Source: Arthrobacter citreus
GTDB lineage: Bacteria; Bacillota; Bacilli; Bacillales; Bacillaceae_G
NCBI GenBank assembly: GCA_013200995.1
Contig: CP053688.1
Location: forward strand, 4,588,001 to 4,652,000
Direction: 5' to 3'
DNA length: 64,000 nt
Below are positions 16,577 to 43,813 of this stretch, piece after piece. Every line of letters begins with the position of its first letter. Position 1 is the stretch's first letter. A program made the position numbers and the translations under genes. The notes below the pieces were generated by a model. That model searched no databases. It worked only from the letters and a program-made list of their open reading frames with translations, and was not told where the DNA came from.

Positions 16577-16760
16577 TACTCTCTTATCCCGAGTAGGTGG
16601 AGGGATACAGGCCCTACGAAGCCCAGCAACCTCACTTTTAGTGAAAGGTGCTGAACCTGATGCAAGACTTTTTTTATGTCTTGAACGATAAGAGCGAAAG
16701 GCAAATAACCAAGAACCCTTTCCTCAGGTAATATTTGATAAGAGGAAGGCTTTTTTTTTG
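16577..16760 (+). ncRNA. SAM-I (S-box) riboswitch with terminator, controlling metK
   Basis: The conserved S-box core is present: closing stem CTCTTATC (16581-16588) with GATAAGAG (16687-16694), the GAGTAGGTGGAGGGA segment, GGCCCTACGAAGCCC, GCAACCTC and AAGGTGCTGAACCTGATGCA. The terminator stem CCTTTCCTC (16717-16725) / GAGGAAGG (16742-16749) is followed by nine Ts. GAAAGG at 16696-16701 can pair with CCTTTC of the terminator as an anti-terminator. SAM binding should therefore stop transcription before metK. Confidence 0.95.
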
Positions 16761-22578: not shown

Positions 22579-22683
22579 CTTAAAGGACAAATTGACTTTA
22601 TTAGCTCTCATTTAAAATACCAATTTATAGAAATTCTTGAACTTTACGAACTTATCGTTTAATATGATTTAATATAAAAACAT

Positions 22684-22800
22684 AAACCAATTGTATAACC
22701 TCATTGATATGGTATGAGGGTCTCTACCAGGAACCGTAAAATCCTGATTACGAAAAAGAATGTAATGTATTTACATCCTTCTTCGTAATCAGGATTTTTT
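22684..22800 (+). ncRNA. Purine riboswitch, adenine type, with overlapping terminator
   Basis: The aptamer shows P1 (TTGTA with TACGA), P2 CCTCAT/ATGAGG with L2 TGATATGGT, J2/3 GTCTCTACC, P3 CAGGA/TCCTG with L3 ACCGTAAAA, then J3/1 ATTA. The position that reads C in guanine sensors (C74 of xpt) is T here, which specifies adenine. The terminator arm starting TCCTGATTACGAA (22742 on) reuses the P3 and P1 3' strands and pairs with TTCGTAATCAGGA before a T run. Ligand binding should therefore prevent termination, an ON switch as in pbuE. Confidence 0.9.
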
Positions 22801-27695: not shown

Positions 27696-28157
27696 GTTGA
27701 TAAAGTTGTGAACTTCGTTGATATATTGGATATTCTCGTTGATATATTGGATATTCTCGTTGATATATTGGATATTCTCGTTGATATATTGGATATTCTC
27801 GTTGATATATTGGATATTCTCGTTGATATATTGGATATTCTCGTTGATAAATTGCTTATTCTCGTTGATAAATGCTTTATTCTCGTTGATAAATGCTTTA
27901 TTCCCATTGATAAATTGCTTATTCTCGTTGATAAATTGCTTATTCTCGTTGATAAATGCTTTATTCTCGTAGATAAATGCTGTATTCCGGTTGATAAATG
28001 CTGTATTCCGGTTGATAAATGCTGTATTCCAGTTGATAAATGCTGTATTCCGGTTGATAAATGCTGTATTCCGGTTGATAAATGCTGTATTCCAGTTGAT
28101 AAATGCTGTATTCCAGTTGATAAATGCCCTATTCTTGTTGATATACTGCAAAACTCC
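27696..28157. repeat. Tandem array of 22 units of exactly 21 bp
   Basis: Each unit begins GTTGAT (two variants ATTGAT and GTAGAT). Units 2-7 are identical, with core ATATTGGATAT and end TCTC. Units 8-13 mix cores AAATTGCTTAT and AAATGCTTTAT. Units 14-20 share AAATGCTGTAT with ends CCG or CCA. Units 1, 21 and 22 are diverged edge copies. Total 462 bp, no spacer and no change of phase. Since 21 is a multiple of three and no unit contains a stop, frames of 150 residues or more are open on both strands. They lack a ribosome site and are best regarded as by-products. The array lies between the osmC and polyamine operons, both of which end before it. Confidence 0.95.
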
Positions 28158-28249: not shown

Positions 28250-28279
28250 AAAAAAACCAGCAAAAATATCTTTGCTGGT
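28250..28279 (-). terminator. Terminator of the polyamine operon
   Basis: Stem ACCAGCAAA/TTTGCTGGT with a six-base loop, followed on the minus strand by a run of Ts. Confidence 0.85.
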
Positions 28280-28288
28280 CTTCTTCAA

Positions 28289-30619
28289 TTACTCTTCATG
28301 ATCCAATTGTTTCTTTACATAAGTAGGGAGCATAAAGCAGCCGACATGTAAGTCAGTATTATAATATTTTGTTTCGATACCTAGCTTATTCCATTCATCA
28401 GCTTTGACGTCTTTAATAGGGTCATATTTTTTTGATGCAAACCCGAATAGCCAGTGTCCAGATGGGTAGGTTGGCATATGGAATTGGTATACTTTTGAAA
28501 TAGGGAATGTTTCCTTTATTTTTGAATGAGCTCGTTTCATTTCGTGCGCATAACTAGCGTAGTATGGACTTTCATGTTGATTAATTAGGATACCTTCTTC
28601 ACTTAATACGCGTTTGCAGTTGTTATAGAAGGCTACTGTAAATAGGCCCTCTCCTGGCCCAATTGGATCAGTTGAGTCTACTAAAATTAGATCGTAATAT
28701 CCTTCTTCAGCTTCTTGGACAAATTTTAGGCCGTCTTCGAAATATAAGGTTAAGCGGTCATCTTGATCTAATTTTGAAGCTGTTAAAGGTAGGTATTGCT
28801 GGCACAGTCTTACAACTCGTTCATCTATTTCGACCATATCTACAACTTCTACATTTTTGTAACGTAATACTTCTCGAGCGGTACCGCCGTCGCCGCCTCC
28901 GATAATTAATACTTTTTTAATTTGTGGGTTAACAGCCATTGATACATGCGTAATCATGTCATGGTAGATAAATTCATCTTTTTCAGTAACCATCATATAG
29001 CCATCGAGCGTAAAGAATGTTCCAAATGTTTCACTTCTAAAGAAATCGATTTGTTGAAATTCACTTTTTTCAGAATGGATATGTTCCTGAACTTTGATGG
29101 AGAATTTCGTATCTTCTTGATGGTTCTCTGTGTACCATAAATCCATTAAATTTTCCTCCAAACTTCGATCGACGACTTTGATTACATAAGGATCATCATC
29201 ATCATTAATTGTGATTGTTCCTTCTTCTTTTAAATACAGATAATGCTGAATCAATTCGGTTGAAATTAGTTCGCCCGGTATGCACAGAGGGATACCAGGT
29301 GGGTAAATCATAATGGATTCACCACTAATTAAGCCGCTAGCATCGTGAATTGAGATAATTCGTTTTGGATGATAGTATGCTTCCCTTGGTGTCATAACCA
29401 TTTTAGGATTTTTTAGTGCAACACTTATATCAGTCTCAAGCTTTGGCAGTTTTCCATAATGGCGGTCACTAATATCTCTTAACGCATTAATTAATGTCCG
29501 AATTGTATCTTCATTATCACCTAATGAAATGATTGCTAAGATAACATTAGGTTCTGCAAGTTCGATTTGAATTTTATATTCTTCAGCAAGCATGTCGTAT
29601 ACCTTAAAACCAGACAGTCCAAGATCAGACACTTTAACAACAAGTTTTAGCTCATCGTAATCGAAAACACCAACGCCATTCCGATATGAATCTCGAGTTA
29701 TACATTTTAATCCCTTAATGGTGTTAATTTCTTCTTTAGCTTTCTTCGTTAAATTTAGTAATTTTTCAAAGCGCTCCTGACCTTCTAAAACTAATTTCTT
29801 TCTTGCAACATCAATTGAACACATGAGTAGATAGGACGCAGATGTTGTTTGAAATAAATTAATTGTAGAGCGAACTCTATTTTTCGTAATTAACCCGTCA
29901 TTATGCAATAAAACTGAAGCTTGTGTTAAAGCACCGCCAGTCTTATGCAAACTAAGAGTAACTAAGTCAGCACCAAGTAGGGCAGCATTACTTGGTAAAT
30001 CAGGGTGAAACGAAAAGTGAGCACCGTGGGCTTGGTCTACTAAAACAGGTATCCCTCGAGAATGACCTATGTCGATAATTTGTTTTAAATCCGACGTTGC
30101 TCCAAAATAAGTTGGATTAATGATCAGGATGGCTTTAACATCCGAATTTAAATCTAAAGCATGGAGAACAGATTTTACTGAAACACCATTTACAATTCCA
30201 TATTCATAATCAATTTCTGGCTCAATAAATACTGGTTTAGCTCCTGCCAAAATTAAAGCATTTATAGCAGATTTATGTACATTCCTCGGTAAGAGAATTT
30301 TATCTCCATGTTCAAGGGCACTCATAATCATATATTGAACACCAGAAGTCGAACCATTTACCAACATATAAGCATGATCGGAATGAAAAGCATCTGCTAG
30401 TAAAGTTTCTGCTTCTTGAATTACACCTGTTGGATGCGATAAGTTATCAACACGCTTTGAAGAGTTAACATCCATTTTAAGAGCCATTTCACTCCAAAGT
30501 TCTCTTAATTCCTCCAGTGAATTTCCTCTTTTATGCCCGGGAACATCGAAGCTTGTAATGTCCTCCTTTGCATAACGGACTAATTCCGTTAAAAGCGGTG
30601 TTTTACTGTGATCCATCAT
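28289..30619 (-). CDS. Fused arginine decarboxylase-spermidine synthase (SpeA-SpeE)
   Basis: One 776-residue frame. Residues 1 to about 485 are a fold-type I PLP decarboxylase of the Bacillus SpeA group: [25 protein letters not shown], Asp195 in [10 protein letters not shown], Lys226 in SLHKTGG, and [12 protein letters not shown]. Residues 492-776 are a complete spermidine synthase: [18 protein letters not shown], the SAM-type GGGDGG at 574-579, the catalytic VDSTDP around Asp648, and PTYPSGHW. B. subtilis makes these as separate SpeA and SpeE. The linker is short (RSLEEN), and its DNA is a GGAGG eight bases before Met492, so free SpeE can also be made. It overlaps speD by four bases. A sequencing error hiding a stop is the main alternative. 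Confidence 0.85.
29144..29159 (-). promoter_or_regulatory. Internal ribosome site and start codon for free SpeE
   Basis: On the minus strand GGAGG (29159-29155) is followed after eight bases by ATG at 29146, codon 492 of the fusion, from where a 285-residue spermidine synthase would be read. Seven codons upstream, CGA at 29167-29165 differs from TGA by one transition and sits where SpeA would be expected to end. Confidence 0.7.
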
Positions 30620-31452
30620 CCATCTATATCCTCCACATCAGGACCATTCCAAAGGTTTTTTCCGTAAAAAATCTCATCCATTTCATATTTCACTTTTTCT
30701 TCAATTTCTTTAATCTCATTTTCGTCTAATTTATCTTTTGTGTAGCCAAAAAGATAATTATCTAAATTAAATTGTTTCAACTTACATTTCGTATGAAATA
30801 TATTTTCTTGAAACACGTTCACATCGATCATTTGATACATATCCTTAATTTTTTGAGGAAAGTAATTTTGAATTGAGTTAATATCATGATCAATAAATAA
30901 TTTATAACCGCTCACATCGCGAGTAAAGCCTCGAACTCGATAATCAATTGTCATAATATCAGCATCAAATTGGTGGATTAAGTAGTTTAAAGCTTTTAAA
31001 GGAGAGATTTCTCCACAAGTAGATACATCGATATCAGCTCTAAACGTACTAATTCCATCATCTGGATGATATTCAGGATAAGTATGAACGGTAATATGAC
31101 TTTTATCTAAAGCAGCAACTACTAATTCCGGTAATGGACCAGGTGATTCGGAAAACGTTTCAGAGGATGGGTTATCAACTGGACCTTCTGAAACAAGAAT
31201 CGTAACACTTGCTCCTTGAGGATCATAATCTTGTTTTGCAATATTTAAGATGTGAGCGCCAATAATATGCGTAACTTCAGTTAATATTTTTGTTAAACGA
31301 TCAGCGTTATATTGATCATCGATATACTGAATATATGCTTCTCGTTCTTCTTTAGTTTTTGTAAAGCAAATATCATACATATTAAAACTTAATGATTTCG
31401 TTAAGTTATTAAAACCGTATAGTTGAAAATTATTTGACGATGAAATATTCAT
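30616..31452 (-). CDS. speD: S-adenosylmethionine decarboxylase SpeD (E. coli-type)
   Basis: Pyruvoyl enzyme that makes decarboxylated SAM, the aminopropyl donor for spermidine. At 278 residues it is the long E. coli class, not the 126-residue form found in B. subtilis. The self-cleavage site is LDKSHI, between Lys117 and Ser118, with the conserved [29 protein letters not shown] and [10 protein letters not shown] segments. AGGAGGACAATAG precedes the ATG. Its stop overlaps the start of the SpeA-SpeE frame (ATGA), so the donor and acceptor enzymes are translationally coupled. Confidence 0.95.
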
Positions 31453-34252: not shown

Positions 34253-35347
34253 ATGTCACTACCTAAAAATCCGATCCAATTAATGCCAAAAGTTTATAAA
34301 TCAGTCTTTCCTCTTGTGCACCAAGAATTAGACTACTGGAGAGATTTTGCAACGAATATCCCAGATCCAGAACTAAGAAAACAAGCGTTAATGAGTATCG
34401 ATACAAAAACATTTCATTGTGAAGGTGGTGCAATTTTAGCATTACTTTCTGAAAAAAATCTAAAACCAGTCATTGAGTTTATCGTTGCGTATCAAACAAT
34501 TAGTGATTACTTAGACAATCTATGTGACCGTAGTACTTCACTGGATCCAGTTGATTTTGAAGCATTGCATGAGTCTATGATTGATGCGGTGAAATGTCAA
34601 AAATCTGATCAATTATATTATCGCTATAGAGAAGAGCAAGATGATGGTGGCTATCTTAAAGCACTAGTTGCAAAATGTCATAGTAGTTTAAAGGAATCTA
34701 AGCATTACGATGGAATTAAAGATTATTTAGTTCAACTTGCTGATTACTATTGTAAATTACAAATACATAAGCACGTCAAACTAGAAGAGCGAGTTCCTAG
34801 ATTAACGAATTGGTTTGAAAAATACCAGCCAGAGCTTTCTGATTTAGAATGGTATGAATTCTCTGCTTGTGCAGGTTCAACTTTAGGCATCTTTTGTTTA
34901 GTGTCCTATTCGTTTAATGAATCAATCTCCAAGAATTTATTTGAACAAGTATATAAGAGCTATTTTCCATATGTTCAGGGCCTTCATATATTACTAGATT
35001 ATGTAATTGATCAAAAGGAAGACGAAGAAGGCGGAGACTTAAATTTTTGCAGTTATTATCCATCTAAAGAGGTTATGTTAAAGCGAATTGAGTATTTTTC
35101 AACTAAAAGTAATCAAGCATTAAAGGATTTAAAAGACTATCGTTTTCATAGAATGATTTGTCAAGGATTACTCGGAATTTACTTAGCTGATAAAAAAATG
35201 GCAGGTCCAGATGAAATGAAAAGGATTAGACGAGGGATTGTTAAGAACGGTGGATTAACGTCATTCTTTTTCTACGGAAATGCTAAGTTATATTTTAAAT
35301 TAAAAGAATTAAAAGCGAGTAGCAAAAGAGTAAAGGCATCGGTTTAA
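34253..35347 (+). CDS. ytpB: Tetraprenyl-beta-curcumene synthase YtpB
   Basis: A 364-residue terpene synthase of the large (sesquarterpene) class, DUF2600. The Asp-rich DYLDNLCD (85-92) is the expected Mg2+/diphosphate site, preceded by the family block TFHCEGGAILALLSEKN. In B. subtilis YtpB cyclises heptaprenyl diphosphate to tetraprenyl-beta-curcumene, giving membrane C35 terpenes found in spores. GGGAGGAG precedes the ATG. It is the first gene after the divergent ytoA gap and ends in its own terminator. Confidence 0.93.
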   Translation: MSLPKNPIQLMPKVYKSVFPLVHQELDYWRDFATNIPDPELRKQALMSIDTKTFHCEGGAILALLSEKNLKPVIEFIVAYQTISDYLDNLCDRSTSLDPVDFEALHESMIDAVKCQKSDQLYYRYREEQDDGGYLKALVAKCHSSLKESKHYDGIKDYLVQLADYYCKLQIHKHVKLEERVPRLTNWFEKYQPELSDLEWYEFSACAGSTLGIFCLVSYSFNESISKNLFEQVYKSYFPYVQGLHILLDYVIDQKEDEEGGDLNFCSYYPSKEVMLKRIEYFSTKSNQALKDLKDYRFHRMICQGLLGIYLADKKMAGPDEMKRIRRGIVKNGGLTSFFFYGNAKLYFKLKELKASSKRVKASV

Positions 35348-43572: not shown

Positions 43573-43813
43573 TGATCGGCAATGATTGGGAATAGTAGTG
43601 AATGTGAAGAGGTTTAGAGAGTTGACGGCTGGTGAAAGTCAATCCATTCTATTCATGAACTCGCCCATAAGCCACATTTGTGAACGGTTATTACCAAGTA
43701 ATAAATGTCGTGTTCCACGTTACGGAAACAAGTGAATGTATTTTTACATTAATTTGGGTGGTACCGCGGGAAATCCTCTCGTCCCTTTTGGGATGGGGGG
43801 ATTTTTTTATTTT
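43573..43813 (+). ncRNA. T-box leader of leuS with terminator
   Basis: Stem I carries the usual AGAG bulge region and a specifier loop with CTC (43660-43662), a leucine codon. The T-box core GGGTGGTACCGCG is at 43756-43768, whose GGTACC-flanking UGG pairs with the uncharged tRNA acceptor. The terminator AAATCCTCTCGTCCC/GGGATGGGGGGATTT follows, with a T run. Uncharged tRNA-Leu(GAG) should turn leuS on. Confidence 0.95.

Follow-up and report, generated by a model that had tools for sequence, protein, structure and literature searches.

A fused speA::speE polyamine gene with a conserved internal SpeE start in Gottfriedia and Clostridia

The fused gene and its operon

The window, that is, the whole 64,000-nucleotide stretch of DNA analysed here, carries on its reverse strand a speA::speE gene that translates into 776 residues with a single stop at the end and is the only open reading frame of at least 150 amino acids listed between its ends (Table 1). 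In a Pfam search of the fused protein, the N-terminal part matched OKR_DC_1 (PF01276, residues 7–306, 254.4 bits) and OKR_DC_1_C (PF03711, residues 374–465, 40.6 bits), both above the cut-off, and the C-terminal part matched the SpeE N-terminal tetramerisation domain, Spermine_synt_N (PF17284, residues 494–546, 47.5 bits), and the synthase domain, Spermine_synth (PF01564, residues 549–731, 190.7 bits), with the curated cut-offs exceeded; this search reported no further N-terminal domain. The SpeE domain was also recovered by the NCBIfam polyamine aminopropyltransferase equivalog NF002010 (residues 492–773, 379.9 bits against a cut-off of 260), by TIGR00417 (294.1 bits, above cut-off), and by comparison with the spermidine synthase structure 1iy9_A (244 bits). 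Together, these matches cover the decarboxylase and SpeE, bearing out the claim of the first-pass annotation that both domains are complete. With about 480–490 amino acids, OKR_DC_1 followed by OKR_DC_1_C, and no N-terminal REC domain, residues 1–485 have the make-up of the ancestral form and are assigned by these features to the AAT-fold Orn/Lys/Arg decarboxylases (SpeA/aADC/aODC). Lys226, which we take to be the PLP lysine of this domain, and the GGGDGG motif at residues 574–579 are unchanged across 33 aligned fused proteins. An AlphaFold2 prediction (33 fused proteins; mean pLDDT 81.9, pTM 0.64) contained two mostly well-modelled domains, with a weaker C-terminal stretch of SpeE and a low-confidence junction; the modelled parts matched ODC/LDC/ADC structures and spermidine synthase structures, respectively.

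The frame had been described as one uninterrupted fusion, and all 776 codons are indeed open. A stop codon removed by an assembly or base-call error in this one genome was rejected as an explanation and has a negligible probability, since the same stop-free frame is present in 12 of 12 other genomes of the genus and relatives in Clostridia carry it as well.

Table 1 Features of the speD-speA::speE operon (window coordinates)
Feature	Coordinates	Strand	Evidence or remark
speD, AdoMet decarboxylase, E. coli type	30616..31452	−	TIGR03331, 466.7 bits; 4-nt overlap with speA start
speA::speE fused gene, 776 aa	28289..30619	−	Single frame and domain matches
Decarboxylase domain, residues 1–485 (AAT fold, presumed PLP Lys226)	29165..30619	−	PF01276 and PF03711
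Junction codons 486–491 (SLEENL)	29147..29164	−	pLDDT <50 at residues 488–507
Internal Shine-Dalgarno GGAGG, inside codons 487–489	29155..29159	−	In 26/26 full-length and 2 partial fused genes
Internal ATG (Met492), probable start of free SpeE	29144..29146	−	ATG/Met at 491 or 492 in all counted
Spermidine synthase domain / putative free SpeE, 285 aa, residues 492–776	28289..29146	−	NF002010 equivalog
Terminator-like hairpin 3′ of operon	28250..28285	−	Consensus match only

The host is a soil Bacillus relative with a 5.47-Mb genome in 3 contigs, and speD adjoins the fused gene in all 13 same-genus loci, its own included. The genome also contains an unfused speA-like gene that is 40% identical to the A domain, an unfused speE (41% identity) with an arginase-family gene directly after it, a third decarboxylase (34% identity), and a second, short AdoMet decarboxylase gene. 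The fused operon is therefore an extra, second polyamine set and not the only route in this genome. In Gottfriedia, arginase-family genes lie elsewhere in the genome, one of them beside the separate speE, and speB adjoins the fusion in none of the 13 same-genus loci. Among the 14 clostridial fused loci with the 3′ side covered, speB lies directly 3′ of the fused gene in 9 and is not adjoining in 5. The arginase-family gene that follows the fusion at locus L158 contains DAHTD and DLDVLDP, presumably the mark of that family. The order speD-speA-speE-speB is common in unfused clostridia, and we read it as the ancestral arrangement.

Several other features were seen in the window. A 21-bp tandem repeat (27715–28143, 20.4 copies, 93% match) lies just beyond the terminator-like hairpin, and a SAM riboswitch (16581–16694), a purine riboswitch (22671–22770), and a T-box leader (43573–43789), each on the forward strand, score above the Rfam gathering score. 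A DUF2600 protein (463.6 bits) is encoded on the same strand at 34253–35347.

Distribution and origins of the fusion

A search for the same SpeA-SpeE architecture in related genomes, which the first-pass annotation had proposed, found the fusion stop-free in 13 of 13 same-genus genomes (the present one and 12 others) and in Clostridia, so the relatives do not all have separate genes, a pattern that was also looked for. Among the matches listed, none of the other 87 relatives had a stop-free match to both domains. The protein database yielded 48 full-length fused proteins, 54–100% identical to that of the window; among named records, fusions with 86–98% identity come from isolates of Gottfriedia and "Bacillus sp.", and four records (P0011, P0012, P0043, and P0044) have source names that mention the SpeE half only. 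Gottfriedia belongs to the Bacillaceae, class Bacilli, and Epulopiscium to the Lachnospirales. In a contig search, the best 80 of 453 stretches encoding a relative comprised 21 fused and 59 separate loci. The fused ones, one of which is cut by a contig end, were 11 from Gottfriedia or Bacillus sp. and 10 from Clostridia including Epulopiscium, many being the same genomes as the same-genus set of 13. Both genes lay in one frame in all 59 unfused loci, an outcome that single-match scoring favours.

Within the order to which the Epulopiscium MAG G101 belongs, the fusion was full length in 12 of 392 genomes, with one further copy, in G299, cut by a contig end, and in the order of G863 it was present in 1 of 225. 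In a class-wide sample of 391 genomes (E ≤1e-200), the centre genome G101 was the sole fused one among 14 rows, suggesting that the fusion is seldom found outside its clades. With the E-value cuts applied, neither the 391 nor the 225 genomes yielded DNA of a P0046-type fusion. Long frames in G109 (808 aa) and G483 (829 aa) were considered as further fusions and rejected as separate ORFs, and G127 and G097 were set aside as unfused neighbours whose two domains are parted by a TAA or TAG. The G236 copy has an open junction and is divided between two contigs near residue 320. The break (L158 1–84 and L159 103–1227, reverse strand) has a hairpin-like edge and an ORF that by eye resembles TnpB, which points to an insertion element, so this fused gene is probably not intact.

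Trees of the decarboxylase domain placed the fused proteins in three groups (the clade of the window protein, P0001; P0044/45; and P0046–48) with unfused decarboxylases between them. A single fused clade was rejected by the AU test (p-AU 2.7e-38; still 4.6e-6 with P0046–48 left out), and the trees thus support three separate fusions, where counting alone does not separate three gains from a single gain followed by separations. Some lone speE genes, from speD-speE operons without speA, nest in the fused clade of the SpeE tree; L162 groups with P0041 (support 97/96), and the nesting is marginal overall by the AU test (p 0.049). This suggests that the decarboxylase half was lost again in these lineages. 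The speE genes of L162, L163, L165, L166, and L173, which encode SpeE near the fused clade, lie directly after speD without speA and have speB next in 4 of the 5 loci. Four other loci (L164, L167, L168, and L169) contain speA-speB pairs without speE, and among the unfused decarboxylases for which DNA was available, theirs are the nearest to the A domain of the window gene by identity (52–53%).

The presence of the fusion in every same-genus genome and in Clostridia argues that it is old, not recent, and an origin within this lineage alone did not hold up given that the fusion is common to Clostridia too. Gottfriedia was nested in the fused clade in a midpoint-rooted full-length tree, was sister to the remaining fused clade in a quick SpeE tree, and had a weak or unresolved placement in careful trees. 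Because this placement varies by tree, the direction from Clostridia to Gottfriedia rests on other evidence, namely the clostridial unfused relatives and the lack, among the matches listed, of a two-domain stop-free match in the 87 other relatives. By these comparisons, the gene probably moved between the two groups already fused.

The junction and the internal SpeE start

Codon 485, which is CGA in the window gene (29167–29165), had been proposed as the former SpeA stop, changed from TGA. In 25 non-redundant full-length fused genes, this codon is CGA (11), AGA (2), AAA (9), AAG (1), ACA (1), or ACT (1); the Arg codons are those of the 13 genes on the Gottfriedia side, and the 12 genes from Clostridia encode Lys or Thr. 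In 80 unfused relatives, SpeA ends at residue 485 in 34, at 486 in 15, at 484 in 5, and later in 26, so that a stop stands at codon 485 in just 5 of the 80. The comparison of related genomes therefore gave no support to codon 485 as the lost stop. Three unfused clostridia (L056, L064, and L188) have an in-frame TAG right before the GAG GAN of the ribosome site, which would put the lost stop at codon 487, and codon 487 is NNG in all 25 fused genes compared. A TAG at codon 487 is thus a candidate at least as good as codon 485, and these alignments make a stop at 486–487 more likely than one at 485. Stop loss between neighbours would be a natural route to the fusion, as unfused clostridia often have the two genes adjacent in the speD-speA-speE-speB order.

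The proposal that the SpeE ribosome site is retained inside the frame was confirmed, as all 26 full-length fused genes contain GGAGG and ATG. Codon counts were made on 25 of 27 non-redundant loci, omitting the partial genes L140 and L158, and L196 was added later to give 26. GGAGG followed 4–9 nt on by ATG was present at the junction in all 25 genes, in L196, and in both partial genes, with a spacing of 8 nt in the window gene; a second such motif was seen at the 3′ end of the L139 gene. All 25 genes have GAG at codon 488, the sole column with 100% GAG among the 15 invariant-Glu columns, GAG making up 4–52% in the other 14 and 273 of 1263 Glu codons overall. Of 151 columns in which two-fold A/G codons predominate, codons 487 and 488 are likewise the sole two that always end in G. 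When the codons were shuffled synonymously, with the protein fixed and the codon usage of each gene retained, the junction motif arose in 0.6–21% of shuffles per gene (mean 5.5%), versus its presence in 26 of 26 genes tested; the frequencies were not multiplied across genes because the genes are related. Shine-Dalgarno motifs inside bacterial genes are generally depleted (PMC5100845), which makes the kept GGAGG more telling.

Eighteen of the 25 fused genes have the internal ATG at codon 492, and the other 7 have it at codon 491. Clade proteins (n = 67, 64 of them different) have Met492 in 41 cases, Met491 in 26, and neither in none, and every one of the 48 fused proteins that include the linker has a Met at one of these positions (P0052, 734 aa, the remaining one of 49 long proteins, is without the linker region and was omitted from linker counts). 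On the tree, this corresponds to two register shifts and no loss, as may be expected of a start codon, which may hop, and not of a folding residue. Residues 488–489 are Glu-Glu/Asp in 34 of 43 clade proteins, Glu-Lys/Arg in 7, and have Asp488 in 2, so that GGAGG cannot occupy the same place in 9 of the 43; the seven Glu-Lys/Arg proteins possibly have AGGAG one codon earlier. In P0044–P0048, compared as proteins, the Met is kept in 5 of 5 and Gly-Gly is present in 4 of 5 linkers, which would fit a GGAGG read in a different phase.

A conserved Shine-Dalgarno sequence with an in-frame start codon and synonymous constraint was thus found in 26 of 26 full-length fused genes, and by this codon evidence the internal start is under constraint at the nucleotide level. 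This constraint backs the earlier suggestion of two products as plausible, and with the old SpeE start kept very long inside the fused gene, free SpeE is probably produced alongside the double enzyme. The joint itself might be a neutral read-through, with the internal start providing nearly all SpeE activity and the 776-aa chain serving no special purpose. Such a reading would suit the internal start being the most strictly kept synonymous feature found, the grouping of the lone speE of L162 with P0041, by which the decarboxylase part appears droppable, and the separate genes of most sampled Clostridia with both (59 of the best 80 of 453 loci). We nevertheless think it improbable, as the junction frame has stayed open in 48 fused proteins with identity down to 54% and fusion occurred, by the trees, three separate times.

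Predicted pathway and relation to known fusions

Given these observations, we lean, with some reservation, towards a speD-speA::speE(-speB) polyamine operon whose second gene gives two products, with an agmatine hand-over, a clostridial stop-loss origin, and probable transfer already fused. One product would be a 776-residue bifunctional decarboxylase-aminopropyltransferase and the other a free 285-residue SpeE from the retained internal GGAGG/ATG. The decarboxylase domain would act on arginine, and the SpeE domain would receive the agmatine and aminopropylate it, using dcAdoMet from SpeD, to N1-aminopropylagmatine, which the separate ureohydrolase SpeB, the next gene in many clostridial loci and encoded elsewhere in the present genome, would convert to spermidine without free putrescine. 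The amount of free SpeE would govern the balance between both activities, and the free subunits would complete SpeE oligomers that could not be closed by fused chains. On this view, two neighbouring in-frame genes lost the stop between them in Clostridia, and the resulting gene probably reached Gottfriedia already fused.

The decarboxylase is likely an arginine decarboxylase, given the speB linkage and the 40% identity to the separate speA-like gene, and the SpeE domain is predicted to transfer the aminopropyl group to putrescine or agmatine. Past work found that 17 of 18 bacterial SpdSyns, including that of B. subtilis, make N1-aminopropylagmatine (PMC11107197) and that two further Bacilli ancestral-form decarboxylases assayed were ADC only (PMC8503589). 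Clostridial ancestral-form decarboxylases, however, include ODCs and ODC/LDCs (PMC8503589), and with an A domain of clostridial kinship the substrate could be ornithine. The same two-product gene would then run from ornithine through putrescine to spermidine with agmatinase unneeded, consecutive steps that would account for the fusion, and speB is not adjoining in any of the 13 same-genus loci or in 5 of the 14 clostridial ones. We regard this as unlikely, though less so than a neutral joint, because an arginase-family gene directly follows the fused gene in the other 9 of the 14 and agmatine deiminase is present in two genomes without an arginase-family gene. These two, the fused-gene MAGs G100 and G106, may be incomplete; together with the lack of speB beside the Gottfriedia fusions, they fit a putrescine route better. 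Direct aminopropylation of agmatine would make the fused steps consecutive; on the putrescine route they would be so only with an ODC as the decarboxylase.

A bolder version of the preferred two-product reading, which we offer tentatively, is that of a recurrent (at least three origins), horizontally moved gene whose full chain is a putrescine-free agmatine to N1-aminopropylagmatine enzyme and whose internal start, conserved across two Bacillota classes, gives a complex-completing free SpeE. If true, SpeA-SpeE fusions would be a natural "Rosetta stone" for SpeE acting directly after SpeA. The N1-aminopropylagmatine route, which bypasses putrescine, has been suggested as a possible default in bacteria with arginine decarboxylase (PMC11107197), and since SpeA and SpeE are consecutive on that route and not on the putrescine route, natural fusions allow a direct test. 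The kept internal start would also indicate that an operon can fuse two genes yet retain separate control of the second product.

AdoMetDC-aminopropyltransferase (SpeD-SpeE) fusions were reportedly described by Green et al. in 2011. Such fusions occur in Pelagibacter (PMC11107197) and as bacterial AdoMetDC-SpmSyn proteins (PMC12803844), and they resemble SpeA-SpeE in the in-frame joining of polyamine enzymes, the C-terminal SpeE-type domain, and horizontal transfer. Their partner is an AdoMet decarboxylase, whereas that of SpeA-SpeE is an AAT-fold PLP decarboxylase, and the excerpts of these two papers make no mention of a retained internal ribosome site. The window protein lacks PF02675 and has speD as a separate upstream gene, which places it outside the SpeD-SpeE family. 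A 783-aa aODC-arginase/agmatinase fusion of Fusobacteriaceae also has an ancestral-form AAT-fold decarboxylase at its N-terminus, but its C-terminal partner is a ureohydrolase thought inactive rather than SpeE (PMC8503589). SpeD-SpeDC double-pyruvoyl fusions likewise combine two polyamine steps in one chain, with a different fold and no SpeE domain (PMC10407285). No report of a SpeA-SpeE fusion was found in the open-access literature covered, which included PMC11107197, PMC8503589, PMC10407285, PMC12803844, PMC8437039, and PMC5100845. As far as this literature shows, SpeA-SpeE is a new pairing within the known polyamine-enzyme fusions.

The retained internal start of the fusion is unusually clear. 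Internal in-frame starts are known for the long and short forms of CheA, IF2, ClpB, and the cas8-encoded Cas11, where, as predicted for speA::speE, one frame gives a full-length and a C-terminal product; the speA::speE start is set apart from these in being the former start of a separate gene.
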